Under the pieces are notes generated by a model that was not told where the DNA came from, did not search any database, and saw only the letters and a list, made by a program, of their open reading frames with translations. A program made the position numbers and the translations under genes. Shown here one piece after another: positions 24,176 to 47,736 of a stretch of DNA of 64,000 nt (positions are counted from its first letter, which is position 1; each line of letters starts with the position of its first letter). The stretch covers positions 181,621 through 245,620 of the forward strand of contig JAJOHG010000048.1 of assembly GCA_021029095.1 (NCBI GenBank), written 5' to 3'. This stretch comes from Phellopilus nigrolimitatus. Its lineage: Eukaryota > Basidiomycota > Agaricomycetes > Hymenochaetales > Hymenochaetaceae.

Positions 24176-27100
24176 CTAAAACTTGTCATCGCCCGTAGTC
24201 ACACCTTCAGCTACAGGCTCTTCAACAGGAACCACTCCCGAAAGCTTCGGTTCGTCCGTCCAACCAAAGTATTCGGGGCCTTTTATCCAAAATGGCTTCA
24301 GTCGCCGCACTGCGGACAATGCATCCTTTGTCTGCCGCGGATGTTCTTGCAAAATATGGCGAGATGAGAGCAGTGTCGCATATACGTCTTTGTCATCCAC
24401 TACATTGTATACCGACGGCGAACAACCGTTTACGAAAATAGCGTATCGCGGATGCACCACTTTGGCAATGTTCTTCCCTTTGTCAGTGTTCCTATCGCTC
24501 CTCTTTCCCATATGGCTTGTCCTGAGATTTGATGGCGTACCTTCGACCTCATTAACAGTCGACCTCTCCCCCGCAGAAGAAGCACGGGTCGGAGTGCGAG
24601 GGCGAGCTACTTCCGTGGGCGCGCTCTTCGCCTCGTACTTGGCCTGTGTCTGATAATAAGGCTGCACACCCAATTCCATGACAATCGTGATGTATGGCCG
24701 CCCATCCTCGTTCGGGCCGGACTGCGCCGGGAAAAAGTGGATGGCACGTTCGTCGATCTCAACACTGGCTTTCGTCCCAGCCCTCACTCGATCCTTGATC
24801 TGAATAAGAATTCCGGACATGATTTCTTCTCGGAGTTCCGCGTCCCATAAGATGATTGGGATAAACATGTTTAACAACGCTTGACCAGAACTGCATTGGA
24901 AAGCCATTGCACGAGCCGCCGCTGCCCAAGCGGCCTCTGTCGATATTACCGACGAGTCCCCAGCACGCTGGAAATGCGTGAAACGCACCCAGGCTTTGTC
25001 GAAAGCCTCCTCGAAAGTCTGTCCATTTTTAACATTATCGGGGTGGCTTTTGAAGATATGTTCCGCATGCTCATCTCCAAAGAGTGCTCTGATGAAGTAC
25101 TTCAAGGGTACACCTCTGCTGTAAAACGGATACTTTGAGCTTTCGTCAACAGGTTTATTAAGGTTCTCTGAAGTGTCTCTTTCATACGCTTCAGCCGCAT
25201 CATCGTAAGCCAGGGTGAAGATGAGCCTAGCGACGAGCTCGCCACGTTCGCCCTTGTCGATCACGCCGGTGTCTAGAAATTTTTGCAGAAGTCGAGAAGG
25301 ACTGTTAGAGCCCCCCCTGCTACGCAGGATACGCATCTGCCGAGCCGCTGCTTCGGCGAGGATCGGCTCCGATGGATAGCCTGTCCTTATCGTTTCACAG
25401 TGCTGTGGGATCGAGAATGCTATCGCCATATGACTCTGGACAAGCTTGACTATCCGCGCTTGCGTCTTCGATCGAGATGTGTTGAAGTTAAGAAGAACGC
25501 GCACGGCCAAGACAGCTAACTTCGCATCATCGGTCATTTCAGCACTATCAGGCTTGTTACGTCCGATGAGTTTGGACCTAGCGAGATTGATTATGCTCCA
25601 TTCCATTTCCGGTTCGCCGCTCTTCAAGAGACTGAAAAACCTGGCAAAGATACAGCATAAGCAAGGTCTCATGCATAGTAACCAAGACGTAAAACGGTGC
25701 ATACATTGGCCTTCCAAACGCACTCATAAACTTGATGGTCGCTACATCACGGAGCGCCTTCTCACCAGGCCGGATAACTGGTCCATCCTGAGAACAATCG
25801 AATGGAAGTTCCGTAAACGGAGGCTGGATAGTGTCTTCGCCATCATAGACTCTCGCCGATGGATACATCCATTGAGGTGGTGCAAATTTCGTGAGACTAG
25901 AATGCGTAGACAGAAAGAGGAAGAACACCGGTGTGTCCAAAATGCCATTGGCAGTTGAGCAGAAGGCATGGTAAAGAGTGCATGAAACTGATCCGGTTTT
26001 GTCAGGTACGATGATGTTCGTCAGATCGTGGGCTTCGTCAAAGTAGATCACCACACGAGCATCAGACGGATCATTGACTTTCGCGAATTTGCTGATGATT
26101 GAGATTAAGGCAGAGATCTTGTTTATGGTCTGCTCGGCTAAAAAGAGGTGTGCAGCAGAATCGGCAGTACGTCCGTCCGTTTTCGCTGGGTCAGGATTCG
26201 ACTTGGCTTGTTCCTTGTCACGTTTTTCCTTGGACTCCTTGAACACCTTGAAAGCCTTCTCATCTCTCTGCATAAAGGCAATCAGCAGAGAAAGGTGATC
26301 CCGGTATACCCAAACCACGTACGTCGTACTTCATATCCACGACCTTCTGGTATAATTCATCCCGACCTTTCTCAAGATGCGCCGACCACATTTTCGCCAC
26401 TTCCCCGTAAGTTCTTGCCACCTTAAACTCAGGCTCAAGCGCCTTGACTTCGTCGAAAACTACTGAGAACAGATTGTGCAGAAATTCCATGAAGTGCAGG
26501 CGAGCTGCTTGCAACTCTTTCGGTGCGTTTTGACAAAGGTGATCGCGTATCTTCCTGTCAGGAAAAGGGTATGCGAAACCTGAAAAAATACGTCGTCAGC
26601 TGACGTACGATAACGTCTCTTCGCGGCTCACCCTTCTGGTCCCCGGTCCGATCTCAGATTGAACGGTATAGTGAATATAAGTTTACTGTGCTCGTGCACA
26701 GTCCGCGATTTTCCAGTTCCCGAGCTCTGGACGATGGCCAAGCTATTTGCATAGACCTGCTTACCCATTTCCTTGGTCATGGTGCGGACCGTTTCGTAGA
26801 GTAAACGATGGGCCTTTCCGTTGTACGTAACCGTCCACGCCTGCTTGACAGCTGGTGCCGTATCTGTCAGACGAGCCGATCGAAGACATATATAAGACAC
26901 GAATACCTTGCTCTGTATGACGTTTCAGATAAAGGACAAAAGGAACCTGAGATACATCACTCACTCTGCTGACCCTTATCGTCTGTACCGTGGGAGACGT
27001 CTTGATACAAAGACTTATATTGTTGAAGGTCGACTGCGTAGCCAAAGGTGGGAGCGATAGAATGACGAACGAGATTTACTTACGCAGATTTCTAATGTCT

Positions 27101-27462
27101 TTATATTCTTTCTTCTTATGCGCCTCCTCGATGCGATTTTTCAAAGCGGAGCCGTATAGCGATAGTATTGGTTTCACCAATGCTGGCTCTCGGTATTTAG
27201 GGTTTAGTCCTGAGCACGTCGCGACGACAGATTGAACAATACATGGGGGAGTTATGGGTGACGGCATGATATCCGAATTCTCTTCCTGGTAAGCCAATGC
27301 CCGCTTGTCTAGCTCATCATGAACAACCTCGTCGTATCGGTCTTCAATGAAGATCAATCCCGGCGGCTGAGTCCTCGGTTTTGTTGAGGGACGATTAATC
27401 TCGTCAGCGTCTTCATTGGGACGTTTTGACCCTTGACCGGAAGACCTTCCTGTGTTCGCCAT
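24176..27462 (-). pseudogene. P-loop NTPase / nuclease-like protein, copy 1, frameshifted
   Basis: Exon positions follow copies 2 and 3: 27462-27084, 27033-26965, 26851-26632, 26579-26323, 26267-25705 and 25640-24176. Walker A is VQSSGTGKSRTV and Walker B is VVIYFDEAHDLTN. The putative nuclease region has QCSSGQALLNMFIPIIL and ILIQIKDR. Two lesions are visible. A run of four C at 26641-26644 replaces three C in copy 2, so the exon is 220 nt instead of 219 and the frame is lost after the Walker A exon. The acidic residue seen in copies 2 and 3 (LDM, IDM) is Asn here (codon 24869-24871). A few residues of N-terminal exon 1 are unique to this copy. A sequencing error could explain the frameshift but not the Asn change. 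Confidence 0.75.
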
Positions 27463-27815
27463 GATGGGGAAAGCGGAGGATGGGAGAGCACCAGAAGTGA
27501 AGCCACCCTGTTGTTATACTGGCTGTTCCTATTCAAGCTCCCGCGTGTTCTGATTGAGGGAAGCTGTGCAGGCCTCGTGGGAACTACCCATAATGGTGCA
27601 TGCCTTCAAGGCCGCCGCCCTGAACTCAAGAGCCAACAATGGCAAACAAGTCCATTCACCGGTCAATGGGACGCCAAAATGTAAATTTGAATTTAAAGCA
27701 ACTCAACACTAAACCGTACAATTCTTTTTAGCCTATGCTACTCATATATATCAGCAAGTTTCATATGAGCTACGGAGCGAAACCACTTTAAAATGAGAGA
27801 GAAATAAATTATTTA

Positions 27816-28233
27816 CAGCGTTTTCAAAAAACCTTGTCAGTGCGCGCAAAAAAAAAAAAAAAGTTGCGGCCCCCCAGGGTGTGCCAAATAAGGCATTATT
27901 GCCTAATTGAGCGAAGTCGCGTCGTGGTTGCCTCGTCCATCGTGCCGTCCGTGTCCGTGTCGTGCAGCGTGCGCTAATCTGCCAACGGCGCCAAAAACTA
28001 CACTCGGAGAAGCCAAAAATTTCAGCAAGTGCATCAGGGCAGTAGTGGGTTATCCCATATAGCCAAAGAACACGGACTTTCAAGTCCTCACTGATCTTTC
28101 GATTGGGCATGTACAACATAAATTCACGACGCGACTTCGCTCAATTAGGCAATAATGCCTTATTTGGCACACCCTGAGGGGCCGCAACTTTCTTTTTTTT
28201 TGCGCGCACTGACAAGGTTTTCTGAAAACGCTG
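27816..28233. mobile_element. TA-flanked inverted-repeat element B with a leftover transposase HTH
   Basis: The 418-bp element has terminal inverted repeats of about 110 bp (27816-27926 and 28125-28233), starting CAGCGTTTTC and bounded by TA on both sides. This fits a Tc1/mariner-type miniature element. The short interior holds, on the minus strand from 28110, MPNRKISEDLKVRVLWLYG and then an FGFS motif. This looks like the N-terminal helix-turn-helix of a fungal DDE transposase, cut off after about 45 codons. Both arms contain the A-rich run and the GCGCGC core. Confidence 0.8.
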
Positions 28234-28235
28234 TA

Positions 28236-28836
28236 CAGTGGAACCTCCCATACTGCATAAAGGTCGGTGGAAGGGTCAGCTTATGCTTATTCAGAGGTTA
28301 TGCAATACGAGAAACTTGACTTATTAGGTAATTAAAACCATTAAAATCAAAGGATAAGCTATGATGGCATTTATCGGGTTGCTATAACATCCCCTAAGCT
28401 GAAAAAAAAAACCTGTGTGATATCAGGTTGTACAAGGCTCTTTGTGTGCTCTGCTCGCAGCTTTATTCTGAGTTGGTGGAGATGGCCGTGAGCCTGCCTG
28501 AAATCCGGCTGAATGTTCAATGGCACCGGAATTCTCCCAAAAGAGGGGAAGGTCTGCGGAATGAGCACTGAGAGTATGTCAAATCCTCATCATAGCGTTG
28601 ATAGGTGAAAAAAAATGCGGAAGAAAAGGAGAAAATAAATGATGAAAGTGTCGCAACCCGATGGCAACCGACCTTGCATAATGCATATCCATATTTAAAT
28701 TACTCAAATTGGCTATGCATTATGCATATATAGTTTTATATAAGGATTTTCTATCTACCGACCCGGTGGAAACCCGGATCATGCATTATGGGAGGTTATG
28801 CATTATGAGAGTTATGCAATATGGGAGGTTCCACTG
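28236..28836. mobile_element. TA-flanked inverted-repeat element C, copy 1
   Basis: The 601-bp element has ends CAGTGGAACCTCCCATA and the reverse complement, with TA at both borders (28234-28235 and 28837-28838). Inside the ends, TGCATA/TATGCA motifs repeat in both orientations. A second copy lies at 43428-43933. It starts at the same TA that ends element B. No transposase frame remains; a short minus-strand frame (around 28371-28568) is open but unclassified. Confidence 0.8.
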
Positions 28837-28838
28837 TA

Positions 28839-29190
28839 ATATGTTTGGTCAATTTGAGCTCTCACCACACCGGATTCCCACGCTCAATCAAAGCCGGGCA
28901 TTTCGCATCCGGCTCCCAAGTCCGCAGAGGCCCAGAAAACTCAGAGCATCTTGCAAGCTACTATACGTGTGCGTCGTAACCCTCTCTATTCTGTCTTTTA
29001 TTCTTGTTGTTGTTGTCGTCAGCGCTGATTTTGGTTCAGTCTGCTGGAAAAGCCCGAAAACCACCATATATGATCCTATGGGGCACCAATGGCCCGAACT
29101 GTGAACCGCCCGAGCCGCTTGCTCTCCACGCCCTGCCTTCTGTCAGGGCGTCACCACGGGTTGGGCCCTCCCACCGCTAACTGACCGCCA
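28839..29190. other. Unassigned DNA between element C and the Ser/Tyr-rich frame
   Basis: It contains an acceptor-like GGTTCAG at about 29038 followed by an open stretch in one frame (from GKARKPPYMIL) to about 29170. This could be an upstream exon of the Ser/Tyr-rich frame at 29191, but I found no connecting donor that keeps phase. Confidence 0.25.
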
Positions 29191-29778
29191 ATGAAGCACA
29201 GTTCGATGTACGGTAACCACTCTGCGCATCCAAGCTTGCACCTGCTTTCGCCTGCAGACGAGTATTCGCAGTCGACTACAGGCTTTTTGCCCACACCATA
29301 CGGAAGCATAGGCATGCATTACGGATACACCGACTCTAACTCGTGGAGGATGTCGCCGAGCAGTGCGGACTCGTCTTCCCAGCAGGGCACGGGAAGTTTT
29401 TCGTCCCTCCTGAACCCGAGCGATAATCAATATTCGCGTGGCTCCTTGCAAACAACATATTCTTCGCCGTTCTCAAGTGTGCCTTTGCAGATTAACCATA
29501 GCGTGTCGAGCCTTTCTCCTGACAGCCGTCCGACTACTGGCTATTCGCTCTCGTCTATGTCTTCCTTTCCCTACGACACGGAAAGCACGTCGACCAGCAT
29601 ATCGCACGACTACCCTCCCGGGCTCGGGCCATCTATGATCCCTTGGCAATCTCACTCATTGCACGAGTCGAGTCTTGCAGGCAGCCCAGGCGGCGGTATT
29701 AGTTCAGGCTACTCGTCTTCGAACACCAGCTACGGCATTGGCGTCGGCGGCTCTGCAGTGCACCGCCAAAAGCCATAA
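29191..29778 (+). CDS. Ser/Tyr/Gly-rich protein or C-terminal gene fragment
   Basis: A 195-codon ATG-initiated frame encodes a low-complexity protein. It begins MKHSSMYGNHSAHPSLHLL and contains SNSWRMSPSSADSSSQQGTG and TTGYSLSSMSSFPYD. Composition resembles the transactivation tail of fungal transcription factors. No DNA-binding domain is present, so it may be a detached C-terminal exon. It lies between NTPase copy 1 and the noxA fragment, inside the 7-kb duplication period but absent from the second period. The codon pattern looks coding; function unknown. Confidence 0.4.
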   Translation: MKHSSMYGNHSAHPSLHLLSPADEYSQSTTGFLPTPYGSIGMHYGYTDSNSWRMSPSSADSSSQQGTGSFSSLLNPSDNQYSRGSLQTTYSSPFSSVPLQINHSVSSLSPDSRPTTGYSLSSMSSFPYDTESTSTSISHDYPPGLGPSMIPWQSHSLHESSLAGSPGGGISSGYSSSNTSYGIGVGGSAVHRQKP

Positions 29779-30060
29779 GCGTCCCTCGCAGGCGATGAGC
29801 CCCTACCCGAGCCCTTATGACAATAACTAGATTCATGCCCACCACTTAGACCTCAGCACACAGGAATGGCTACGCATACGTACATGCAATCGCGCAGAAC
29901 GAGTTTTTGAGCTTAATTCCCCACCGTTCTGCACGATATAAGCTGGTAAACTTTCGAGTGATATGGGGTTGGGAGGTCTCTGTTGTCGACTGTTTAATCT
30001 CGCCTTCAAATGGCAGAACTTCCGTTCATGTCTGCCGATGAAATAAGCATAATCTTCGCA

Positions 30061-30433
30061 ATCCAGGATGTTGGCGCTGACGTCGATGCCATCAGAGGCT
30101 TGCGCGCGCCGACGCACTTCGGACGGCCGAACTGGGACCGCGTGTTCCCGTCCATCGCAGAAAACCATCCGGACACCGACGTCGGCGTGGTACGCCTTTT
30201 CTAACTGTACCTTTCCGTATACTCTTCTGACTTAGACACTCCCAAATAAGTTCTTTTGTGGCCCCTCGGTGCTCTCGCGCACGCTGCACACCATGTCAAA
30301 CAAGTACTCTTCGCCGAAGGGCACGTGTTTCTTCTTTGGCAAGGGTAAGCTACCCCTTGCTACCACAGCTCAACAAATTCGGTGTAAATTTCACTAACAC
30401 CTTGTTCCGACTCCTTTTACAGAGAATTTCTAA
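30061..30433 (+). pseudogene. noxA 3' fragment (exons 4-6), duplicated and headless
   Basis: It is nearly identical to noxA 23061-23433 at a fixed +7000 offset and keeps the splice sites and the final ENF stop. Upstream of about 30024 the similarity ends in unrelated DNA, so the haem and FAD domains are missing. A few substitutions have accumulated, for example an Arg-to-Cys change near the FFFGK motif. It cannot make a working oxidase. A short ATG frame from 30010 reads into it but terminates in the retained intron. Confidence 0.9.
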
Positions 30434-31201
30434 GTGCATTCGCACGCTCGCTCACCAGTCGTTTTTTCAAGTCCTGGGTTCCGTGTTCTTCTTTCCTTTT
30501 CTTCGTCTTCCGAGTCAGCTGTGTTAGAGCTGTGTGCAGGGCCGCTGTGCAACTCGAGGTTGACCCAGTGCGTCCTCGCGAGTTCTACGAAGAAGTAGTG
30601 GTCCGTTCGTGCTTTCGATGTTCATGTTTTATCTCTTGTTCTCTGAATCGAATAGTCAATCTAGTCGGAGGCATCTTAATAAATCTTTCTGTATTCTGTG
30701 TGATGTCTTGTCATCAGAGCCGGAGCGTCATCAAACAGCAGAAGTAGTGAGATAAATGAAGGGATGCGTTGAATTCAGCCCGTCTTCGACGACTTCGAAT
30801 TCTTCAGAACTCATAGCCTATTATGTAAGCCCGAAGCCCGCTCAACATGAATGTGGTTCAGCACGCGTCACTCCAAGTCATGAACCCTTGTCTTATTTTT
30901 TGTATGGCTCGAGGCAGCGAGCGATATCTAGTCTTTTACATGCATTATAGCATGTAGACCGAGTCTCATCGATTTTTGGAGAATGCACATGTACATGCAT
31001 GGATAAATTCAAACGATAGTGTTACAACGAGAACGTAGAAGAAGAAAAAAAAACAGCAGACTTTGATCACACGTGTACTACTGCTTATATTACGAGGCGC
31101 GATGTGCTGGAAAAATTTATGTATAGTAAGAGTAGCATTCCACATCCACATATCCCTGTGGATTATTTCTATATGAACGGGTTCTCTTCCTCCTCTCCCT
31201 T
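30434..31201. repeat. Right copy of the noxA 3' UTR and NTPase 3' flank
   Basis: Matches 23434-24175 with several indels. It carries the conserved CATAGCCTATTATG and AACATGAATGTGG blocks also found, inverted, at 48000-48070. No independent gene is seen. Confidence 0.85.
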
Positions 31202-34200
31202 TCAACCCTCTTCAAACGCTGATCCAAGCTCCAACTGGTCCTCGCCCGTAGTCACACCTTCAGCTACAGGCTCTTCAACAGGAATCACTCCCGAAAGCTT
31301 TGGATCGTCCGTCCAATCAAAGCATTCGGGGCCTTTTATCCAAAATGGCTTCAGTCGCCGCACTGCGGACAGTGCATCCGGTGTCTGCCGCGGATGTTCC
31401 TGCAATGTATGGCGAGACGAGAGTAGTGCCGCGTATACGTCTTCATTGTCAACCACTTTGTACACCGACGGCGAACAGCCGTTTACGAAAATAGCGTATC
31501 GCGGGTGCGCCTCCTTTGCAGTCTTAGTGCTCCTCACCTTCCTCGTTATCTCATGGCCTGTCGCGAGGGACGATTGCGAGACGGGCGGTCTCTTTTCTGC
31601 AGGAGGAGCCTCGTACTTGGCCTGTGTCTGGTAAAAAGGCAGCACGCCCAACTCCATGACAATCGTGATGTATGGCCGCTTGTCCTCCTTCGGACCTTCG
31701 CTGGACTGCTCCGGGAAAAATTTGATGGTTTCCGCGTCGATCTCAACACTGGCTCTTGTCCCGGCTTTAAATCGATCTTTGTCCTGGACAAGGATCGCGG
31801 TCATGATATCTTCCCCAAGTTTCCCCTCCCGTCGTAAGATGACCGGGATAACCATGTCTATCACCGCCTGACCGGAACTACATTGGAAAGCCATTGCACG
31901 AGCTGCTGCTGCCCAAGCGGCCTCTGTCGATACAACCGACGAATCCCCAGCACGTTGGAAGTGTGTAAAGCGCACCCAAGCGTCGTCGAACACCTCCCTG
32001 AAAGTCTTCCCATCTGCAACATTATCAGGGTGGCTTTCGAGGATACGCTCCGCATGGTTGTCCCCAAAGAGTGCTTTGATGAAGTATTCTAAGGGAACAC
32101 CTTTGCTGTAAAACGGATACTTTGAGCTTTCGTCAACAGGTTTATTAAGGTTCTCCGAAGTGTCTCTTTCATACGCTTCAGCCGCATCATCGTAAGCCAG
32201 GGTGAAGATGAGCCTAGCGACGAGCTCGCCACGTTCGCCCTTGTCGATCACGCCGGTTTCTAGAAAATTCTTCAGAAGTTGAGAAGGACTGTCAGAGCCC
32301 CCCCTGCTACGCAGGATACGCATCTGCCGAGCCGCTGCTTCGGCGAGGATCGGCTCCGATGGATAGCCTGTCCTTATCGTTTCACGGTGCTGTGGGATCG
32401 AGAATGCTATCGCCATATGACTCTGGACAAGCTTGACTAGCCGCGCTTGCGTCTTCGATCGAGAGGTATTGAAATTGAGAAGAACGCGCACGGCCAGGAC
32501 AGCTAACTTCGCATCATCGGTCATTTCAGCACTATCAGGCTTGTTACGTCCGATGAGTTTGGACCTAGCGAGATTGATTATGCTCCATTCCATTTCCGGT
32601 TCGCCGCTTTTCAAGAGACTGAAAAACCTGGCAAAGATACAGCATAAGCAAGGTCTCATGCATGGTAACCAAGACGTAAAACGGTGCATACATTGGCCTT
32701 CCAAACGCACTCATAAACTTGATGGTCGCTACATCACGGAGCGCCTTCTCACCAGGCCGGATAACTGGTCCATCCTGAGAACAATCGAATGGAAGTTCCG
32801 TAAACGGAGGCTGGATAGTGTCTTCGCCATCATAGACTCTCGCCGATGGATACATCCATTGAGGTGGTGCAAATTTCGAGAGACTAGAATGCGTAGACAG
32901 AAAGAGGAAGAACACCGGTGTGTCCAAAATGCCATTGGCAGTTGAGCAGAAGGCATGGTAAAGAGTGCGTGAAACTGATCCGGTTTTGTCAGGTACGATG
33001 ATGTTCGTCAGATCGTGGGCTTCGTCAAAGTAGATCACCACACGAGCATCAGACGGATCATTGACTTTCGCGAATTTGCTGATGATTGAGATTAAGGCAG
33101 AGATCTTGTCTTTGGTCTGCTCGGCTACAAAAAGGTGTGCAGCAGAATCGGCAGTACGTCCGTCCGTTTTCGCTGGGTCAGGATTCGACTTGGCTTGTTC
33201 CTTGTCACGTTTTTCCTTGGACTCCTTGAACACCTTGAAAGCCTTCTCATCTCTCTGCATAAAGGCAATCAGCAGAGAAAGGTGATCCCGGTATACCCAA
33301 ACCACGTACGTCGTACTTCATATCCAGGACCTTCTGGTATAATTCATCCCGACCTTTCTCAAGATGCGCCGACCACATTTTCGCCACTTCCCCGTAAGTT
33401 CTTGCCACCTTAAACTCAGGCTCAAGCGCCTTGACTTCGTCGAAAACTACTGAGAACAGATTGTGCAGAAATTCCATGAAGTGCAGGCGAGCTGCTTGCA
33501 ACTCTTTCGGTGCGTTTTGACAAAGGTGATCGCGTATCTTCCTGTCAGGAAAAGGGTATGCGAAACCTGAAAAAATACGTCGTCAGCTGACGTACGATAA
33601 CGTCTCTTCGCGGCTCACCCTTCTGGTCCCGGTCCGATCTCAGATTGAACGGTATAGTGAATATAAGTTTACTGTGCTCGTGCACAGTCCGCGATTTTCC
33701 AGTTCCCGAGCTCTGGACGATGGCCAAGCTATTTGCATAGACCCGCTTACCCATTTCCTTGGTCATGGTGCGGACCGTTTCGTAGAGTAAATGATGGGCC
33801 TTTCCGTTGTACGTAACCGTCCACGCCTGCTTGACAGCTGGTGCCGTATCTGTCAGACGAGCCGATCGAAGACATATATAAGACACGAATACCTTGCTCT
33901 GTATGACGTTTCAGATAAAGGACAAAAGGAACCTGAGATACATCACTCACTCTGCTGACCCTTATCGTCTGTACCGTGGGAGACGTCTTGATACAAAGAC
34001 TTATCTTGTTGAAGCACGACTGCGTAACCATAGGTGAGAGCGATAGAATGACGAACGAGATTTACTTACGCAGATTTCTGACTTCTTTATAATCCTTCTT
34101 CTCATACGCCCCTTTAAGGAGATCTTCTAAAGCGGTACCGTGTTCCAACATTGCTTGATGCGCCCCTGGATACTTTTGGAGTTGAGAGTCGAGTCTATCG

Positions 34201-34445
34201 CACGTGTCAGCGACAGCTACAAGGATCCATTCAGGAATGGTCGCCGGCATGGCCATGGAATTGTCTCGAAGATAAGTCGCCGTATCCTCGTCTAGCTCAT
34301 GATGAACAAGCTCGTCGTATCGGTCTTCAATGAAGATGAATTCCGGCGGCTGAGTCCTCGGTTTTGTTGAGGGACGATTAATCTCGTCAGCGTCTTCATT
34401 GGGGCGTTTTGACCCTTGACCGGAAGACCTTCCTGTGTTCGCCAT
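31202..34445 (-). CDS. P-loop NTPase with C-terminal nuclease-like region, copy 2 (intact)
   Basis: Exons 34445-34070, 34019-33951, 33837-33619, 33566-33310, 33254-32692 and 32627-31202 sum to 2910 nt and 969 residues without a stop. The N-terminal exon carries a basic start (MANTGRSSGQGSKRPNEDAD). An ATPase core follows with Walker A VQSSGTGKSRTV, Walker B YFDEAHDLTN and a sensor-like FLFLSTHSSL. The C-terminal half has KGERGELVARLIFTLAYDDA, then GQAVIDMVIPVIL and ILVQDKDR, a spacing that suggests a D...QxK (PD-(D/E)XK-like) nuclease site. This order resembles Crinkler/RHS-type NTPase-nuclease proteins; that assignment is inference. The region between the nuclease motif and HPRYAIFVNG is shorter than in copies 1 and 3. 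Confidence 0.75.
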
Positions 34446-34626
34446 GATGGGGAAAGCGGAGGATGGGAGAGCACCAGAAGTGAAGCCACCCTGTTGTTAT
34501 ACTGCAATACAGTGGCTGTTCCTATTCAAGCTCCGGTGTGTTCTTGATATCGATAAGTGCTAGCATCAAATTCGATAGTACAATACATACTGTTGATCAT
34601 CGATTCCGTTTCTTGTACAGTTGTTA

Positions 34627-34885
34627 CAGGTAGGAGAACAAATGGGTCGGCAAAGTCTTCCCTCCCTAAAAGTGAGGCGTTGTTCGCGCAGAGGATTGCG
34701 AAAATTGTTTAGCCGTGCAGGGCCCTTGTTCTAGACGCGTATCATAAGCATGCAATATGCATCTGATAGTTACTTTTGAATGAGCAGCGTACCAGGCAAT
34801 GGTGAATGACGACGCGACGAACGCGACGAACGCGGCGTCGGCGGGAACCGCTTTCCTTTTTCAGGGTGGGAAAGGGACTCACCTG
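34627..34885. mobile_element. TA-flanked element D, degenerate copy 3
   Basis: Ends TACAGGT and ACCTGTA are preserved. Inside the left end are GGGTCGGCAAAGTCTTCCCTCC and, at the right, GGGAACCGCTTTCC followed by a G-rich block, matching element D at 43035-43340. It lies about 180 bp upstream of the start of NTPase copy 2. Confidence 0.65.
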
Positions 34886-36581
34886 TACCATCCCTCGCGC
34901 CACATCATACTCGCGATGCCTACCTCTGCTCCTTCATTCTGAAAAATGTCTTTTGACCTTTCCTTTCCCTGAAAACGCTAATAGGAGGCTGCGCTCCTTC
35001 CATATCGGCACGTGTCTAGTTCCGCCGCGCTCTGCGGACAGCTTTCCTGAAGCAATTGTTGGTTTGTCGAGCTGATCTCACTCACGCGTTTTGTGGATAG
35101 GCCATACTTATCTCCGCCGTCCCCCTTTTCTGCGGAACTTACGAGTTCCATTTGTTGGGATCTTCAGGATAGGCGAGACTAGCTTCGTTGTGAAAGATTT
35201 CTCGCACCCAACCCTGATCTACCACCTGTTTGGAGGCGGGTTGGTCTCGGTCTTCGCGGTCAGCTTCTTGAGACGCACCTGCCAGTGCACGAAGCCGGTA
35301 CGCACGAGGCAGAGGAAGGACAGAGCGGGCTTGACTATTGTACAGAGAACAGTGAGTCTACAATTATGATTCCCTCATGTTACATATTATGACTGTGGCT
35401 TTTACTCCGTTCATTCCTGGAGTGTATCATGACTTGTCACCACAAAAGATTCACTGCTTTTCTCCACAAAACTGTAAAAGAAGAGCTGTTAAATGATGAG
35501 ATCTGAAGAAACGATCAGATTGAGAGCGGATGGATGTCCACATACACGTCCACGCGACCTCAACTATCATTTTACCAACATTATTCCGAAACCCAGATAT
35601 CAGCGAAACCCGCCTCCCCTCGTGTGCACCCCCGATCCCGAGGACACCCTCGCATCGTGTTTATGACTGCTGCATGCTTGTTGATACATAGCAGCCGATG
35701 CCGATAACGAATTTCTCAAGACTACCGAATACCTCCTTTTCATCATTCGCATCTCCAGAGATTTGAGCGAATGCAGGGCGCAGAAGCCAATGCATGTTTG
35801 TACCTAGCTCATGCGCCTCGTCCGGTGGATATGGGGCGACGTGGGAATAGTATGCGAGAAAAGTGCTTGTTCGTGGCTGTCCATGGATGTGCGTCGGACC
35901 TGCTCGTGCACGGGCGACGGAGTGTGTCGACTGACCGATGGCCTTGTGAATCGCTTGAAATTATTCCTGCAGCGTATCGCTGATGAAGGGAAAGAAAGAT
36001 TTGAAGGCCGACATGCTACAAAGTTGTTGGAACCAAAATTTTCCGAGAAGTTACCGTCGCTATACTTAAGCTTTCAGCCATAATGCGACTGTACTCGCTT
36101 TTCAGTGCAGATATTTGGACTCATATTTGGGTTCTAGTCGTCTGACATCGTCCTGCTGGCTCCTCCGAACAGAATCTCCGAATCTACCAATAAGGTGAAA
36201 CAGAGTCGATGACGACTTGCGCAAAACAAGTGGGTCACATGCCAGATGGCTTCTGTTCGCTGTAGGATAGACACCTGATGAAGAGGTGAATATTGTGTCC
36301 TCAAATTTGGTGCAAAAGAGCGTATCAGCATTCGTCCCATGATCTATGACCAGTAGTCGCCTTCTCTTCTGAATTTATGGGAAGAGATGATTCTATTCAG
36401 AGATGACACTACTGCGAGATGGCCGAACGCTCGAGTGGTCTTGCGGACTCGTGTCCGTGCTACATACCGGAGGAAAGCCCGGCTTACTCTGTGAGCGTTA
36501 TCCATTTGTATCTTCACCGTCACCTACATTGTGAATTTCTTCAAAAAGGAAAGGCCGAGCTGGATTTTGCAAGACAGCAGC
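34886..36581. other. Intergenic, no gene recognised
   Basis: Several short plus-strand frames occur (for example 35091-35369 and 35771-36083). None matches a family, and none is joined by convincing splice sites. A decayed gene is possible. Confidence 0.4.
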
Positions 36582-38631
36582 ATGGTGTTCCCCATGGTTC
36601 TTGCTCTGCTCTATCTCCAGCTTTCTGTCTTTGTCACTCTTTTTGCCATTGCCAGTCCATCCTCGTTGGGTGATGCGTATATCGTCGACACAGGATACGC
36701 AAAATATCGCGGGAATTTTACTGGGCCTTACAGTGTCGCGTTTCTCGGCATACCGTATGCGGAGCCTCCCGTTGCAGACTTTCGCTTTCGTAAGCCCGTG
36801 CCCCTGAACACAACTAAGGAGAACGGTGACGTCATCGACGCAGCTACCTACCCCGATTTTTGCGTACAAGGCAGCACCGGGCAGGGTGATGCTGGTGGTG
36901 CTGGCAGTGAAGACTGCTTGAAGGTCAACGTATACACGCCTGTCAATGCGACATCTCGCAGCAAGCGTGAATAGTAAATCAAATTCACAGAATTGCATTA
37001 TTCTTACTTCCTTTCCCAGTGCCTGTTCTATTTTATATTCACGGGGGAGGTAAGCCTTCGTCGGAATACGCAAGAAAAATGATTCTGAAGCAATTTTATC
37101 AGGCTATGTCTACGGCAATCCACGCAATTGGCCATTCGATCATTGGATTAACCAATCTCCGAACGTGGTGGTCGTCTCAGTATACTACCGCCTTGACTCC
37201 TTCGGATTTCTTGCGCATCCAATGTTTTCCTCTGACGCGTCACTCGGCGATCACAACGTTGGCTTCCAGGACCAGATACTTGCCTTAAAATGGGTACACG
37301 ATAACATAGCTGCGTTCGGCGGAGACCCATCTCTGGTGACGATCAATGGACAGAGTGCGGGTGGTGGAAGCGTGCAGATGCACATGATCGCGAACGAAGG
37401 CTCAGACCAACTCTTTTCCGGAGCGATCGCACAAAGCGTCGATCGAGAAATCATGCCCACACCAGAGCAGCAGAAGGTATGCACATATGATTTTGTTACT
37501 AGCAAACACCCCTCTAATAAAACCCTTTCTACTTCCGAGTAAAGCCACTATTTGATTTCTATGCCGAACAAGCAGGATGCGGCAGCCTTAGTTCCGTTGA
37601 CAACACCTTAGTTTGCCTTCGAAACGCATCCATAAGCGCTCTTGCGCGTGCTCAGGATGCCGGCTCGTCTTTGTAAGAGGCGCTTTGAGGCTACCATCGG
37701 TTTGCTCACCTATCATACCAAACGCAGCAACGGATCCCTATACAATAAGTGGCGCCCAGTTCTGGACAAAGTGATAATACCAGACTACCCCACCAAGCTT
37801 TTGGCAGAAGGTAGGTTCGCACATGTACCGGTCATTGCTGGGTAAGCAAACGAACATTGCACATTGCATTCTGTGGCGTAGAAAGTGCTCATCTTCAAAT
37901 TAGAGCGACGAGCAATGAGACGGGAGGAGGAACTACGAATCTCACGGCAGATCTTCATCAAGCGTTTCCTCTGTTGACCGCTGATGAACTGTCTGAATTT
38001 AACAAAGTATATGATCCGAATCAGTTCTCTTCTATAGAAGAATGGATTCGAACAGGTACCGGAGAGCCTGCGCTACGCTGCGGGGTGAGCTCGCTAGGAA
38101 AATTGCTTATGTCAACTAATCCGGGCTCCTTGTTTTCAGAGAGAAATCATCGGAAACGCGGGAGTCAAGCATTCGAAAGCATGGACATATCGATACAACC
38201 AACCGAATCCGACGCAAAATGAGCCAGGCATCACAGAACACGCTGCAGAGAATTGGATGATGTTCCTGGGTACAAACACCGGGTACGTACTCTCTCGGAT
38301 TTGTCCGCCATCGACTTCGACCTCATTTTACTGTTTAATTCAAAGAACAAACGGGACTACAGTTTTCACTGGTCTCGACAGCACAGAGACCGCGTTCTCC
38401 GAAGAGCTGATAGCTTATTGGCTCTCATTTGTGCGTTCTGGAGACCCAAACACATTCAGACTGGCTCGGTCATCCGAGTGGCCGGATTTCTCGTCGGATA
38501 AAAGGACAGTCTTACAGCAGGATCCCCATAACACGACGACATTCAGTGGAATCTATGTAGAGGAGGAGGATGTTGGGGACGCAATGCGGTGTACATTTGT
38601 GGCTTCGAAAGATGAGCATATGCAGGACTAG
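36582..38631 (+). CDS. Type-B carboxylesterase/lipase, secreted
   Basis: An alpha/beta-hydrolase that would cleave carboxylic esters outside the cell. Eight exons are inferred: 36582-36966, 37020-37049, 37103-37476, 37545-37672, 37728-37841, 37904-38084, 38140-38282 and 38346-38631. They give 546 residues, the usual length. A signal peptide (MVFPMVLALLYLQLSVFV) is followed by FLGIPYAEPPVADFRF and SEDCLKVNVYTP. The oxyanion loop is YIHGGGYVYG. Ser223 in NGQSAGGGS is the nucleophile; the usual GESAG has Gln for Glu here. A later NETGGG probably carries the acidic triad residue and EHAAEN the His. The second exon is only 30 nt. Substrate unknown. Confidence 0.88.
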
Positions 38632-38721
38632 TTACATTACATGATGCGTTCAGGTCTTGTTGCTGTAGCTGTGAATCACATTAGAGTATTACGGTTAGCG
38701 AGGCCACACGCTGATCCACAG

Positions 38722-38754
38722 TGACGTCAGATGCAGTCCTCGAACCTTATAAGG
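38722..38754 (+). promoter_or_regulatory. CRE-type site and TATA box of the miniprotein gene
   Basis: A perfect TGACGTCA palindrome (38722-38729, a bZIP/ATF-CREB site) lies 15 bp before CCTTATAAGG (38745-38754). The ATG follows about 60 nt downstream. The compact arrangement suggests a strong, cAMP- or stress-responsive promoter; this is inference. Confidence 0.55.
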
Positions 38755-38813
38755 ATCCGGCGCGTTCTCACTGCTCGGTACCACTTTACGCTCTCTCTTC
38801 GACTCCCGCAACA

Positions 38814-39256
38814 ATGGGGTACGTCGAAACTGAAAAATACTGAGATTTATATGTATCTAATTACGTTTATTTCCACCCGTCAGGATCATCATCTCCTGTA
38901 TCGGCGGTGCGCAAGGCCTCTCGTTGTCATGAGCATTTTTTATTTCACTAACGAAGGACGCCTCTTATCACATCAATAGGCATCTTCGCCTGCATTGGCG
39001 ACCTTATCATGGACATTGTCGGGTGCGTCGCCGGCTGCCTAGAGTGGATTGTCTCGGGTATGCACCTCTTCCGTTAATTTCATTCGCGACATAGTCGAAT
39101 GCTTGACTTGCTTTCTATTCTAGCGATCGCTGGGTGCTTAACGGGCATCTGCGACTGTATCACAGGAATTCTCTGTTGTGGGTAAGTATACGGCCGCGTT
39201 GTTAGTGCATCCTTAAACCCGTTTTCTTACCATTTTGTTGTTACAGGAGAGCCTAG
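38814..39256 (+). CDS. 57-residue Cys-rich membrane miniprotein
   Basis: Five small exons (38814-38818, 38884-38906, 38980-39057, 39124-39181, 39247-39256) sum to 174 nt and encode 57 residues. The first exon contributes only ATGGG and the last only the final three codons (counting the stop). The protein starts MGIIISCIGG, continues with FACIGDLIMDIVGCVAGCLE and ends ILCCGRA. It has about nine Cys and an Ile/Gly/Ala-rich hydrophobic core able to span the membrane once or twice. The MG start with a Cys nearby suggests N-terminal lipidation. Similar tiny multi-exon proteins are common and uncharacterised in basidiomycetes. It is easily missed by gene finders. Function unknown. Confidence 0.7.
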
Positions 39257-39715
39257 CAGGGGGCTTCGGGAAGATAACCTATCTTCAATACCCATTCCTG
39301 AAGCCCTTATCCATACCCTACTCTTACCCTTTGCGCATATGATGGACACCGCCTCAGCTTATTCGGATATTATATAACATGTACGGAGTATCGCAGAATC
39401 TCGTTTGTATTGTGTTACATAACGACTACGACGAAATGTGATTATTAGAAGAGAAATTCGAGTGCTACTGGACAACATCGTAGACAAAAAGCAGGGGGAA
39501 AAAAAACACAGCGATGAAAGAAAATAATGTTACACTCCGCAAATAACCAGTTGGCTGGATAAGGCCGCCTAGAAGATTGCGAGCAGCTTTGAAAGCCTTT
39601 AGGCGGTCCCCGAAAGAAAATGAGAGAAAACAGGTCTGTTAGAGTATCAACGGGTCGCGGGAAATTTTTACCATTGGTTCCCAATCAAGTCAAGAAACAC
39701 TATAAATCAATTAAA
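39257..39715. other. Intergenic between convergent genes
   Basis: Holds the 3' ends of the miniprotein and the F-box gene. No open frame or repeat of note. Confidence 0.5.
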
Positions 39716-41243: not shown

Positions 41244-42090
41244 CGTCCACGACGATGTCGAGGAGGCCTTCGCTGGCGGGGAACGCGAGTCTTGAGCGAC
41301 GCGATGGACGCTGCGTGCGTCCAAGGTGTTCGCGTCTCAGTCGGCCGCAATAAGCAGTTCAAAAGCCTAGAAAGGAAAAATATGTGGCACGCTCATCGTC
41401 GGACTTTGTCCGACACAAAAAATCCCATACGCAGGAAGTTGCGAGAAACATATGTATGTACATGTAGTAGAGTGAGTATATCATTCGTCTACTTTACTAT
41501 CAGATTTGTGTAATGATATAAATTACATCGTGGCTTATAAAAAATGAATCTGAGAATCCGAGGAGTCCTTCAGCCAGAGATTGCTATCTCAGTCCCTCCG
41601 TGCTTTCGTCCGTTCTAGCCAGAACGCGAACTCAATCTAGACAATGATCTCCTGTCAGTCACGACGGGAACTACGCGCCGGTTTTTGCTTGGCAAAAGTC
41701 ATCGCAGACACTGTACCCGGAGTGCTTGCAATAGGGGAGCTCAAAGTTGAGCGTGCGACATTCAATGTTCATGACGCCTGCCTCGGCGTCGGCGTCATGA
41801 TGTGATTGCTGGTCACAGATTCCTGACGGCCGAGCCCATCCAGACCCTGGTCACACTGAGTCACATTCATTCCTAAAGGGTACAGGTGGTCCCGAAAGTG
41901 TCCGTCATGCCTGATTATTCCCATCTGCGCTCAACATGTCATTCTTCAACTCCCTAGCTTCAATTCTGATGTGCATGTTTGCATCTCTGTCTCATGTGTC
42001 TAATAATCCAATTTTATTTAAACTTAACCTGCGGTTTGTGTGATCTGAGGCCAATAACTGGTTGAGGTTGGAGACGATGTGGTGAGCTGG
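41244..42090. other. Intergenic, no gene seen
   Basis: AT-rich DNA with only short frames. It ends at the hAT-like element. Confidence 0.5.
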
Positions 42091-42767
42091 CTAGTGTTCT
42101 CAAAGGTCAGGTCGGGCCAGGTCAGAGCACTTTTCCACCCGACCCTGACCTGGCCAGGTCGGGATTTTCTGAGTTTTAGCTGACCTTGACCTGACCCGCT
42201 GTGACCCGCAGCTGACCTGACCCAGCAGGTCAGGTCAGGGTCGACCCGGGGCCGGCCACCGACCTGCAAGTAAACATAATTTTCCACAAATGTTCACCAA
42301 ATTTTTTTTATAGATGCCATTTGCACTTTATAAGACACTCATCACAATAAAATGCTAATACAAAAGTTCCTTTTTCTTGAGGAAGCTAGAAAACCATATT
42401 CAACTTGGTGCAGCCTTAGCTTTGTAAGCAGTGACACAAAACTGCAAGTACCATATGCAGTATATTTGTCACAAAAGAACTTAAATTTATGCCTGGTTTA
42501 GGATAGCACATATCCGAGGTCGGAAATTTCTCAAGCTTTCACAGCTTACAATATGCTCTTGTCTACCTCTCAAGTACTTCCGGGTCACAGGTCAGGTCAA
42601 GGTCGGTCGGGGGTCGAGGCGGGTCGGGAAATTCTGGCGGATGCTGACCTTGACCCGGCCCAGCAACGGCCCAGCTTGACCTGACCCGCTAGTGACCTGA
42701 CCCGCGGGTCAGGTCAGTGGTCAACCCCGGGTCAGCACGGGTCTGACCCGGCCTTTGAGAACACTAG
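42091..42767. mobile_element. hAT-like miniature element A with GGTCA arrays
   Basis: The terminal inverted repeats are CTAGTGTTCTCAAAGG and its complement, about 677 bp apart. The octamer AGCTGGCT occurs at 42085-42092 and again at 42768-42775, so a target duplication of 6-8 bp is likely. The terminal 150 bp on each side are packed with GGTCAGGTCA and its complement, while the AT-rich centre has none. Such subterminal repeats bind transposase in hAT elements. No coding frame is present. Confidence 0.75.
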
Positions 42768-43034
42768 AGCTGGCTGCAGCGCAGATGGAAATGAATTGCC
42801 ATAATTAGGCACAGGGGACACTTTCTGGACCTGTCTGTAATATCGTGTATATAGACTAGAGAGGCCTCAATTACTGGCTTGTTTATTTTCATTATTACTA
42901 TTAGGTACCATAGAAACGAGAAAGAAAAAGTGGCAGCAAAATAGTAAGCAGGATCGACGACATGCACAGTAACGCAACGAGTAACGTTGCTTGGATTTAT
43001 TTGCTCAGCTCAGGGATCCGTGACCTGCGATGTA
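42768..43034. other. Unassigned spacer between elements A and D
   Basis: No gene or repeat recognised. Confidence 0.4.
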
Positions 43035-43340
43035 CAGGTGGGTCAGAAAAGTCTTTGCCCCCCTTCCCCCCCCCCCCCCCCCCCCCCCTAAAAAAGGAAG
43101 GCAGTTCACCTTGTTGAAACAAAGACTGCATCAAAAATTGTTTGACTGCACATGATCTTTGCTTTAGATGCATATTATAAACATACGATACGTACTTGTT
43201 AACTATTTTTTGGATGTGTTGAGCTGGCAGCACACCGTAGGCAATGGTGAGCGAGGACTCGACGACGCGGCAGCCTTTGCTACGCAGGCGGGAACCGCCT
43301 TCCTTTTTCAGGGGGGGCGAAGACTTTTCTGACCCACCTG
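43035..43340. mobile_element. TA-flanked element D, copy 1 (best preserved)
   Basis: The ends are CAGGTGGGTCAGAAAAGTCTT and the complement, with TA on both sides (43033-43034, 43341-43342). A run of 23 C (43066-43088) lies just inside the left end. The 306-bp element is non-coding. Related copies lie at 34627-34885 and 52057-52341, and a partial one near 48285. Confidence 0.8.
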
Positions 43341-43427
43341 TAATCCCAATGTGCTTGACCCGGCACCATTGGGGGCATGGGATTGATGGTATCCTTGATG
43401 GCCCTTTTTGGAGATATCGGGCTTTTA

Positions 43428-43933
43428 CAGTCGAACCTCTCCCATATTGCATAGAGGTTGGTGGAAGGTCTGTCTATGCTTATGCAGAGGTTATGCAATA
43501 CGAGAAACTTGACTTATTAGGTAATAAAAACCATTAAATGAGAGGATAATTAATCTGGAAACCCCCCCCCCCCCCCCGTGTGATGTTGGGCTGTACAATG
43601 CTCTCTATTTGCTGCTTGCAGCTTCATTCTGAGTTGGTGGATATGGCTGAATGGCGCAGGCTTCTCCAGAAGGACAGTGAGGCCTGCGGAATGAGCATTG
43701 AGAGTGTATCGAGTCCTTGATAAGTGGAAAAATGCGGAAGAAAAATTAGTAAAAATGTCACAACCCGATGGCATCCATATTTAATTTACTCAAATTGGCT
43801 ATGCATTATGCATATATAATTTTATGCATTATCATATAGGGATTTTCTATCTACCAACTCGGTGGAAACCCGGATATATGCATAATGGGAGGTTATGCAC
43901 TATGAGAGAGATGCAATATGGGAGGTTCGACTG
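43428..43933. mobile_element. TA-flanked element C, copy 2
   Basis: Related to 28236-28836 along its whole length, with ends CAGTCGAACCTCTCCCATA and complement and TA at 43426-43427 and 43934-43935. It is about 95 bp shorter, mainly by deletions in the interior. A run of 16 C replaces a CCCCT/A-rich part of copy 1. Confidence 0.8.
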
Positions 43934-44111
43934 TAGTTGATCACGAAACGCGTGCACCACAATGGACTCGACGATCTTGGAGGGCCACACAGCGCGGTCA
44001 CGTGATGCTATTTAGGGATTATAGACCCAAACATTTTCTCATCATTTGACCAGACCTTATATATCTGTAAAAGTGGAGGACTTATTTGCCACCTCGTTGG
44101 TCCAGGAGTTC

Positions 44112-44112
<1 letters not shown>

Positions 44113-44144
<32 letters not shown>
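44113..44144. repeat. Run of 32 T upstream of NTPase copy 3
   Basis: A homopolymer run of 32 T near the 5' border of the third NTPase repeat. The border itself falls at about 44165, where similarity to the region upstream of copy 1 begins. Confidence 0.8.
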
Positions 44145-44309
44145 CTAAATACTTTCGCATGCGCGCCATTATAGGCAGCTCCCACGGGGCCTGCACAGCT
44201 TTGCCCCCAATCAGAACACCCCGAGCTTGAATAGGAACAGTCACTGTATTGCAGTATAACAACAGGGTGGCTTCACTTCTGGTGCTCTCCCATCCTTCAC
44301 TTTTCCATC

Positions 44310-47300
44310 ATGGCGAACGCAAGAAGTTCTTCCGGTCAGAGGGAGAAACGTCCCAACGAAGACGCTGACGGGACCAATCGTCCCTCAACAAAATTGAAGA
44401 CTGAGGCATCGCATTCACAGCTAACATTGCAGTCTGTCCGATCCGACGAGCTTGATCATCGTAAGCTAGACGAGGATACGACGGCGTACCTTCAAGAGAT
44501 TTCCGACGGCGTACCGGAGAGGATATATGCTGACTTGATTCTTAATGCTGTCGCTGAGACGTGCCATAGACTCGACTCTAAGCTCCGAGGGCCGCTAGGG
44601 GCGAAACGAAAGTTGTCGCAATACGGCACCGTTTTGAAAGATTTCATTATGAAGGCGCATGTGGACAAGGATTATAGAGCAATCAGAAATCTGCGTAAGT
44701 GAATCTCGTTCTCATTCTATCGTTCTCACCTTTGGTTACGCAGGCGTGCTTCAACAAAAACGGGATTTGCCCAAGAACGTCTCCCTCAGTCCACATGATA
44801 AGGATCAGCAGAGTGAGTGGTGTACCTCAGATTCATTCTTTTCTTTGTCTGAAACTCGATACAGAGCAAGGTATTCATGTCTTATCGTATTGCTTCGAAC
44901 GGCTCATCTGACAAATATGGTATCAGCTGTCGAGCTAGCATGGAAGATTAAGTACGCGGGAAAGGCCCATATTTTGCTCCACGAAACGGTCTCCAACATG
45001 ACTCGGAGCATGGGTGGGAGAAGCTATGCAAACAGTTTGGCCATTGTCCAGAGCTCTGGAACTGGAAAATCGCGGACCGTGCACGAGCTCGGTAAGATGG
45101 TCTTCACTATTCCGTTCAATCTAAGGGCGGACCAGGACCAGGTGGGTGAGTTATAAAACGATGATTCGCTACTTCAGCTGACGAAGCCATTCTTAGGTTA
45201 TGCATACCCTTTCCCTGACAGAGAAATACGCAATTACCTTTGTGACGCACCAAAAATGTTGGAAGAAGCTCGCTTATACTTCATGCAATTTCTCTACAAT
45301 CTGTTCTCAGCAGTTCTCAAAGAAGTAAAAAAGCTTGAGTCATCGTTTAAGCAAGCGAAAACTTATGGGCATGTGGCGGAAAGGTGGTCAACGTATCTCG
45401 AGAAGGGAGGTCGGCATGACTTATATCGGAAGGTTGCAAATATGAAGTATCAAGTACGTGTTTTGAGCAGATGGGTGTGACTTTTCCTCTATTGATTACC
45501 TTTGTGTAGAGAAATGAAGAGGCATTCCTGGATTTCGAGATGAACTATAAACAAACTCAGATGGATACTGTCCCAGATGAAGCGAACCCCGGGGACGATG
45601 AAGACGCTGACGACGTTGAAAAGAATGAACCTATTGTCGATCTTGCTGAATTCAAGTTTGTCGCGCAGCAGACCGAAGGGAAAATCTTTGAATTGATCTC
45701 CTATGTCGACAAATTCGCCAAAGATGACCGCTGTACATCGCTTGATGCTCGTGTGGTGATCTATTTTGACGAAGCCCACGATTTGACGAATATCTGCGTA
45801 CCTAGCAACAGAGGTTCAATGTGTCGTACTCTTTACCATGCATTTTGCTCAGCTGCCAATGGTATTTTGAGCAAACCGGTGTTCTTCCTCTTTCTGTCGA
45901 CTCATTCTAGTCTCTCTCAGTTTGCACCACCTCAATGGTCGTATCCCTCGGCAAGAACCGCCGTTAGCGAAGACACTATCCAGCCTCCGTTTACGGAGCT
46001 TCCTTTCGATTGCTCCCAGGCTGAACCACTTATTCGACCTGGTCAGAAGAAGTTAGAAGATGTTGCAAACATCCGCTTTATGAGCGAGTTCGGAAGACCA
46101 TTGTATGTGTATGTTTCCCTGGTTGTGCATGACATTTTACTCATGCTGTATCTTTGCCAGGTTTTACAGTCTTACGAAAGTTCCGCAGGAAGGAGTGGAA
46201 CGGAGAATAGTCAACCTCGCTAGGGCCAAACTCGTTGGCAGTAACAATCCTGATACTGCTGAAATGACCGATGATGCGAAGTTAGCTGTCCTGGCCGTGC
46301 GCGTTCTTCTTAACTTCAACACATCTCGAGCGAAGACGCAAGCGCAGATGGTCAAGCTTGTCCAAAGCCACATGGCGATAGCATTCTCGATCCCTGAGCA
46401 CCGTGAGACGATCAGAACGGGCTATCCATCGGAGCCGATCCTCGCTGAAGCAGCGGCTCGACAGATGTATGTCATGAGTAACAAGACGGACGTTGCGAGT
46501 CCTTCTCGGCTTCTGCAAAAATTTACAGATAGCGGCGTGGTCGACAAAGGCGAACGTGGCGAGGCTGTCGCTAGACTCATCTTCACCCTGGCCTACGATA
46601 AGGCGGTGGCAACCCATCAGAAGGAAAACATGATAAATGGTGTTGACCATAGGCCGGCAGGCTGTCCGTTTTACAGCAGAGGTGTACCCTTGAAGCACTA
46701 CATCAGAGCACTCTTTGGAGAGGAGCATGCGGAACATATCTTCAAAAGCCACCCCGATAATGTTAAAAATGGACGGACTTTCGAGGAGGCTTTCGACAAA
46801 GCCTGGGTGCGCTTCACGCATTTCCAGCGTGCTGGGGACTCGTCGGTAATATCGACAGAGGCCGCTTGGGCAGCGGCGGCTCGTGCAATGGCTTTCCAAT
46901 GCAGTTCTGGTCAAGCATTCTTAGACATGTATATCCCAATCATCTTATGGGACGCGGAACTCCGAGAAGAAATCATGTCCGGAATTCTTATTCAGATCAA
47001 GGATCGAGTGAGGGCTGGGACGAAAGCCAGTGTTGAGATCGACGAACGTGCCATCCACTTTTTCCCGGCGCAGTCCGGCCCGAAGAAGGATAGGCGGCCA
47101 TACATCACAATTGTCATGGAGTTGGGTGTGCAGCCTTTTTATCAGACACAGGCCAAGTACGAGGCGAAGAGCTCGCCCACGGAAGTAGCTCGCCCTCGCA
47201 CTCCGACCCGTGCTTCTTCTGCAGGGGAGAGGTCGACCGTCAATGTGGTCGAAGGTACGCCATCAATTTTAAGGATTAGCCATATGGGAAAGAGGAGCAA

Positions 47301-47736
47301 TAGGAACACTGCCAAAGGGAAGAACATTGCAAAAGTGGTGCACCCGCGATACGCTATTTTCGTAAACGGTTGTTCGCCGTCGGTATACGGTGTAGTGGAC
47401 AGCAAAGATGTATACGCGGCATTACTCTCATCGCGCCATATCTTGCAAGAACATCCGCGGCAGACAAAGGATGCATTGTCCGCAGTGCGGCGACTGAAGC
47501 CGTTTTGGATAAAAGGCCCCGAGTGCTTTGATTGGACGGGCCAACCGAAGCTTTCGGGAATGATTCCTGTTGAAGAGCCTGTAGCTGAAGGTGTGACTAC
47601 GGGCGAGGACCAGTTGGAGCTTGGATCAGTGTCCGAAGAAGAGGAGGGAGAGGAAGAGGAGGGATCCGAAGAAGAGGAGGGAGAGGAAGAGGAGGGAGAG
47701 GAAGATGAGGAAGAGAATCCGTTCATATTGAAATAG
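44310..47736 (+). CDS. P-loop NTPase with C-terminal nuclease-like region, copy 3 (intact)
   Basis: Exons 44310-44694, 44744-44812, 44927-45145, 45197-45453, 45510-46102 and 46161-47736 give 1032 residues (two more if a 6-nt AGCAAG microexon at 44865-44870 is used). Walker A VQSSGTGKSRTV centres on Lys199. Walker B is YFDEAHDLTN with Asp397, followed by FLFLSTHSSLSQF. The putative nuclease residues are Asp763 (FLDMYIPIIL) and Gln786/Lys788 (ILIQIKDR). An HPRYAIFVNGCSPSVY block precedes a purine-rich tail coding for a run of Glu (about 35 residues, 47625-47720) that copies 1 and 2 lack. Structure, not annotation, suggests a Crinkler/RHS-like NTPase-nuclease. No signal peptide; probably nuclear or cytosolic. 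Confidence 0.78.

Follow-up and report, generated by a model that had tools for sequence, protein, structure and literature searches.

A cluster of three genes for putative Crinkler-RHS-type NTPase-nucleases in Phellopilus nigrolimitatus

Three homologous genes in the window

The 64,000-nucleotide stretch of DNA analysed here (the window; C423:181621-245620 in a 56.4-Mb assembly of the wood-inhabiting basidiomycete Phellopilus nigrolimitatus) holds three homologous genes in which a P-loop nucleoside triphosphatase (NTPase) part is followed by a nuclease-like part. They probably belong with the Crinkler-RHS-type (CR) NTPase-restriction endonuclease (REase) proteins, a class reportedly described by Zhang et al. 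in 2016. Copy 1 (27462-24176) and copy 2 (34445-31202) lie on the minus strand and copy 3 (44310-47736) on the plus strand. A preliminary description of this DNA had reported matching intron positions, and our gene models of all three copies confirm this: each has five introns at common positions, every one of them GT...AG. Copy 2 is open over six coding exons (969 aa in our model) and so is copy 3 over six exons (1032 aa), the latter ending in an acidic C-terminal tail. Homology search retrieves deposited models for all of them, namely P0001 for copy 2 and the partial P0002 and P0003 for copies 1 and 3, respectively. P0001 has 971 aa, and we attribute its two extra residues to a 6-nt micro-exon within the second intron of our own copy 2 model.

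Copy 3 shows the layout best. Exon 1 (44310..44694) codes for an N-terminal header and is followed by Walker A (QSSGTGKS, 45049..45072), which stands out by column conservation in the family alignment, and by Walker B (FDEAHD, 45765..45782), whose Asp is found in 96/96 aligned members. The nuclease-like domain as modelled (350 aa, 46498..47547) takes in the HPRYAIFVNG strand (from 47341) and the next helix, and its putative catalytic residues span 46561..47001: E642 (46561-46563), D763 (46924-46926), Q786 (46993-46995) and K788 (46999-47001). Hence Walker A, Walker B and the later D...Q-x-K pattern claimed before are all present in copy 3, to which the Asp763 and Lys788 singled out at the time belong. 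The full E-D-Q-K set is complete in copies 2 and 3 and incomplete in copy 1.

Read with the shared splice pattern, the translation of copy 1 stops after residue 229, its frame being broken in exon 3 of the window contig, and the position of the putative catalytic Asp of copies 2 and 3 is occupied by Asn. Another contig, C484, aligns to window positions 20516-35695 over 15,185 columns, among which there are 1 mismatch and 28 gap bases (over the copy 1 gene: one gap, zero mismatches, 3450 columns), and while the window's match to exon 3 contains a stop, that of C484 does not. Since C484 is near-identical and stop-free over exon 3, the frame break may be an assembly indel, which weakens the case for copy 1 as a clear pseudogene. 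C484 itself, because mismatches to the window are all but absent, is probably a redundant contig rather than an allele.

Site by site, copy 1 is a mosaic whose middle resembles copy 2 and whose nuclease end resembles copy 3. Where copies 2 and 3 differ between 27083 and 25200, copy 1 shares the letter of copy 2 at 410 sites and that of copy 3 at 12, and between 25199 and 24180 the counts are 50 and 129; the best single switch point falls between 25131 and 25116 and fits 565 of the 601 sites. Likeness to copy 3 extends into the near 3' flank (24179-23752, 63 versus 22 sites) up to about 23741, where copy 3 homology ends and the flank of copy 1 matches that of copy 2 at 94-100%. The pattern therefore indicates exchange of the nuclease end between inverted copies.

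An NTPase joined to a nuclease-like part

The nearest folds to the modelled NTPase part are those of ORC, TnsC, CED-4/NLR and RdrA, and there is likeness to MuB as well. Together with Walker A (GK[ST] in 92/93 members) and Walker B (DE in 90/96), this describes an ORC/STAND-like P-loop NTPase of the kind expected in the CR NTPase-REase class. We also considered identity with an NLR/STAND receptor and rejected it, Pfam scans of copies 2 and 3 having returned neither NACHT nor NB-ARC nor C-terminal sensor repeats; among 46 family members scanned with Pfam, hits were confined to the AAA type apart from a single weak match to HEAT_EZ (E 0.049). Pfam, PADLOC and NCBIfam scans yielded no convincing model of the module, a few members giving weak hits to AAA, sequence search against the PDB gave no match and pattern-based scans of prokaryote and viral collections produced zero confirmed relatives. 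Foldseek found no significant match for either model, although the lack of a given family from its results does not count as evidence.

As for the C-terminal half, our model suggests a PD-(D/E)XK-like nuclease domain with an E...D...Q-x-K signature. In a second look for structural matches the best ones were restriction-type nucleases at low Z, including MspJI at 11% identity over a matched range of 15..312 (first and last residue only). The motif itself is complete in 59/95 members (counted on 95 of the 96 alignment rows, P0040 being dropped for gaps), and P0191, a homologue from Calcarisporiella, again has E, D and Q-x-K. The earlier proposal of an NTPase fused to a restriction-fold nuclease of Crinkler/RHS type thus holds for the P-loop NTPase, for the E-D-Q-K motif and for a module in common with PF20147 proteins (see below); the nuclease fold is a candidate one, to which low-Z matches point. 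The proposal had also included an extra, unclassified C-terminal domain behind the nuclease. Two observations made us drop it: the strand (284-290) and helix (303-310) modelled for this HPRY piece fall inside the MspJI-matched range, and P0191 shows, by eye, a comparable strand (RYLFVNN) shortly past its YITL strand. To our minds, the model argues with moderate force for the HPRY piece as the end of the nuclease fold rather than an added domain.

Headers, putative catalytic residues and genomic clusters

N-termini of several kinds precede this module. Among the 74 of 96 aligned proteins with an N-terminus of at least 50 aa (the 22 rows below that length were excluded), BLASTP separates a group of 34 that includes P0001, groups of 9, 5, 5, 3, 2 and 2, and 14 singletons; since BLASTP as set here can miss distant kinship, truly unrelated headers number at most as many as the groups found. 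One five-member group includes four Crinkler-headed proteins (4 of the 120 homologues listed). The PF20147 proteins P0069, P0071, P0096 and P0108 cover 95-96% of query residues 180-969 at 32-34% identity, and six further proteins combine PF20147 with the NTPase-nuclease module. Judged by such alignments, the module is homologous, through shared ancestry, with that of Crinkler-headed proteins; many Agaricomycetes share it, the Crinkler header being one among several N-termini. Header swapping appears to be recent in Cyclocybe aegerita, going by the Crinkler headers of P0069 (NTPase-nuclease) and P0186 (kinase-like end), which are 85% identical over 119 residues. In P. nigrolimitatus itself, the genome has two PF20147 matches, L001 (G000:C147:17624-20839) and L002 (C212). 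The former adjoins an open frame that by eye has the look of a protein kinase, so this fungus may also have a gene of the Crinkler-kinase type.

Copies 2 and 3 show no PF20147 match at E up to 10, and the N-terminus of copy 2 clusters with 33 others, 0 of them with PF20147. The copy 2 header begins with a hydrophilic, Lys/Arg-rich stretch and is modelled as disordered at first and then as a helical domain. The window copies carry a non-Crinkler, fast-changing header, and we do not regard them as Crinkler effectors proper, which would have the N-terminal Crinkler ubiquitin-like domain. This bears on the idea that they are secreted effectors of Crinkler type, active in another organism such as a plant, a competitor fungus or a bacterium. 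We consider it unlikely in view of the header, of the hydrophilic, basic start of copy 2 and of the fungi in which homologues occur, many of which are saprotrophic or ectomycorrhizal. The literature points both ways: plant-pathogenic oomycetes were the first source of Crinklers (PMC5289972), and the class, with whose Crinkler-headed proteins the window genes have the module in common, includes host-directed members (PMC5289972, PMC6131194), yet CR proteins are also found in free-living eukaryotes (PMC5289972).

Between copies 2 and 3, the ratio of nonsynonymous to synonymous change (dN/dS) is 1.06 in the header exon and 1.04 in exon 2 (22 codons), as opposed to 0.36-0.38 in exons 3-5 and 0.43 in the last exon; parts of the latter give 0.38 (nuclease), 0.86 (linker) and 0.26 (HPRY to end). 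A header ratio near 1 would fit either relaxed or diversifying change, between which the test is blind. That most of the protein is under purifying selection is what one would expect of an ordinary DNA-metabolism family that was locally duplicated and has no role in conflict. This option, however, strikes us as improbable in the face of clustered and recombining copies, varied N-termini and nuclease residues that have changed repeatedly: on a tree built without the catalytic columns (by a quick method and with some long branches), the label 'complete' or 'incomplete' changes at least 17 times, and at least 14 times if only well-supported branches are counted. The incomplete members number 36/95, of which 10 differ solely by Ser for Gln.

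A six-frame genome search, whose copy numbers are a lower bound, assigns the copies to two clusters. Cluster A is that of the window, with parts repeated on C484 and C482, and cluster B occupies contigs C90 and C522 with seven copies each (by our own reading of the search rows). Outside both lies one degraded relict (G000:C223:1216491-1217096, 43% identity, 7 stops). True mismatches separate C90 from C522, for instance 172 in 6645 columns, as expected for two haplotypes. In cluster B, H-x-[N/D/G] replaces Q-x-K in 13/13 last exons read, 12 called by pattern and that of L008 separately; L015 carries a stop, and the remaining one of the 14 loci, a split copy on C90, was excluded from this reading. 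Nevertheless, the nuclease region of cluster B has a pooled dN/dS of 0.27 (28 pairs from 8 loci), which left out L014 (the haplotype partner of L009), L015 (for its stop) and the shorter L018-L020, 5 of the 13 loci read; the pairs are not independent since two haplotypes are mixed. This ratio indicates purifying selection in spite of lost cutting residues, so that some members may serve a useful role without cutting. A glycine of Walker A is changed in 2/5 deposited cluster B proteins.

That armed and disarmed members share one genome hints at a system for defence or conflict within the fungus; a defensive role, also raised in the preliminary description, is possible. A selfish variant of this idea is a poison-antidote or drive-like system, in which active nuclease copies would be the poison and disarmed paralogues the protection, comparable to Medea1 of Tribolium, a CR-type NTPase-nuclease element (PMC11342252). 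It could draw on the complete copies 2 and 3 being accompanied by the selectively maintained, disarmed cluster B and on sequence exchange between copies. Clusters A and B are on different contigs, though, and among the 23 species with at least two members in alignment A1, whose repertoires are incomplete and no census (one of the 23, Serpula, stands for two strains), just 6 have both kinds, 13 having complete members only and 4 incomplete ones only. A general armed-disarmed pairing is unsupported by these counts, and we rate the selfish system as rather unlikely. Taiwanofungus has one complete and one incomplete member with near-consecutive gene numbers (AcV5_002142, AcV5_002144).

The flanks of the window genes bear on mobility. 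The preliminary description saw the copies as embedded in dispersed repeats with a shared 3' border and as perhaps self-spreading. Repeats do exist: a MITE-like (miniature inverted-repeat transposable element-like) dispersed element lies upstream of copy 1 (27814..28235; inverted ends of 113 nt, about 95% complementary, around a middle of about 200 nt; at least 12 further near-full genomic copies), next to an independent dispersed repeat (28234..28838) that has a 70% relative near copy 3 (43426-43935), and another one (48158..48316) abuts the 3' flank of copy 3. They are widespread in the genome on their own, however, and not part of the gene unit, and the apparent border at about 48158-48160 is the junction of that last repeat with copy 3; between copies 1 and 2, homology extends roughly 0.7 kb more. 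The 3' flank of the gene (22900-24200) was matched on no contigs other than C423 and C484, both of cluster A. Self-spreading is unsupported, the repeats being independent and the copies located falling into two clusters: dispersed copies with common ends, the hallmark of a mobile element, did not turn up, the genome-wide count (a lower bound) being two clusters plus one relict and the gene flank not dispersed, though no search was aimed at short inverted ends or target duplications of the gene unit. What still speaks for a transposon-derived, self-spreading unit is the likeness of the NTPase part to TnsC and MuB and contig C482, in which the 5' half of copy 3 (0 mismatches, 3 gap bases, 2541 columns) is joined at 2541 (window 43786) to other sequence. 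This adjoining sequence has a counterpart, at about 96% likeness, in contig C489, which diverges at that point. The junction may mark a second site or a rearrangement, or C482, which ends within the gene, may be a chimeric contig. On balance, we hold such a unit to be very improbable.

Also in the window, there are an open frame beside the cluster (21622-22815) that by eye resembles a protein of the NADPH oxidase/ferric reductase type and, between copies 2 and 3, a gene that looks like a carboxylesterase or lipase (36495-38631).

Proposed role and comparison with known systems

We favour, with a probability of about 0.6, a reading of the window genes as intracellular, probably nuclear NTPase-nucleases of the CR class that act as a conflict weapon within the fungus's own cytoplasm or nucleus. 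It builds on gene structure, motifs, conservation, the P-loop NTPase model and kinship with Crinkler-headed proteins, and on a nuclease fold to which low-Z matches point; from these we infer the nuclear site, gating by NTP, DNA cutting and a role in defence. The variable header would set the destination of the protein or what it senses, the ORC/STAND-like NTPase would bind NTP and then assemble or switch, and the C-terminal restriction-fold nuclease would afterwards cut DNA, the likeliest targets being mobile DNA, viruses or a foreign nucleus. Copies without nuclease residues would presumably be non-cutting regulators or partners. A more specific and quite tentative version, possible in our eyes yet doubtful, is a two-tier system: cutting-competent cluster A proteins might be held in check or directed by cluster B paralogues that keep the NTPase and a folded nuclease body without cutting residues, and rings that combine active with disarmed subunits, their headers changing fast, might set a threshold for self-destruction or for killing of a foreign nucleus. 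Should cluster B indeed consist of pseudo-nucleases that are maintained, an armed and a disarmed cluster in one genome would allow a clean test of what the module natively does, and the answer would bear on how fungi police a shared cytoplasm.

The order of header, NTPase and nuclease is already known, as it is described in PMC5289972, by which more than a quarter of the C-termini in the CR class are NTPase plus REase and unrelated alpha-helical domains are among the headers. Among titles and the beginnings of abstracts on fungal and basidiomycete Crinklers and CR NTPase-REases (subscription papers fell mostly outside the search), we recognised no description of this family or of its nuclease loss. 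Like CR NTPase-REase proteins, the family has the order header, P-loop NTPase and putative restriction-fold nuclease, alternative unrelated headers and PF20147 homologues with the same module; unlike them, the window copies have a non-Crinkler header that is helical in the model, and many relatives lack the nuclease residues yet keep Walker A. From STAND/NLR and Avs proteins the window copies differ in that no NACHT or NB-ARC match was found by Pfam and in that their nuclease-like part is C-terminal. MspJI, whose catalytic domain is of the Mrr-cat type with (D/E)..(D/E/Q)XK (PMC3874153), is set apart by the low identity and Z given above, and no SRA-like DNA-binding domain turned up in the window copies, where none was sought.

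In PMC11342252, CR-type NTPase-REase elements are linked to Medea1 of Tribolium and to the nucleases of Wolbachia CifB. The family discussed here resembles Medea1 in coupling a CR-type NTPase to a putative REase, and CifB in the coexistence of putatively active and inactive REase domains. Compared by description, the arrangement is nonetheless different: CifB unites active and inactive domains in one protein, whereas in Phellopilus the complete and disarmed versions are separate paralogous genes.
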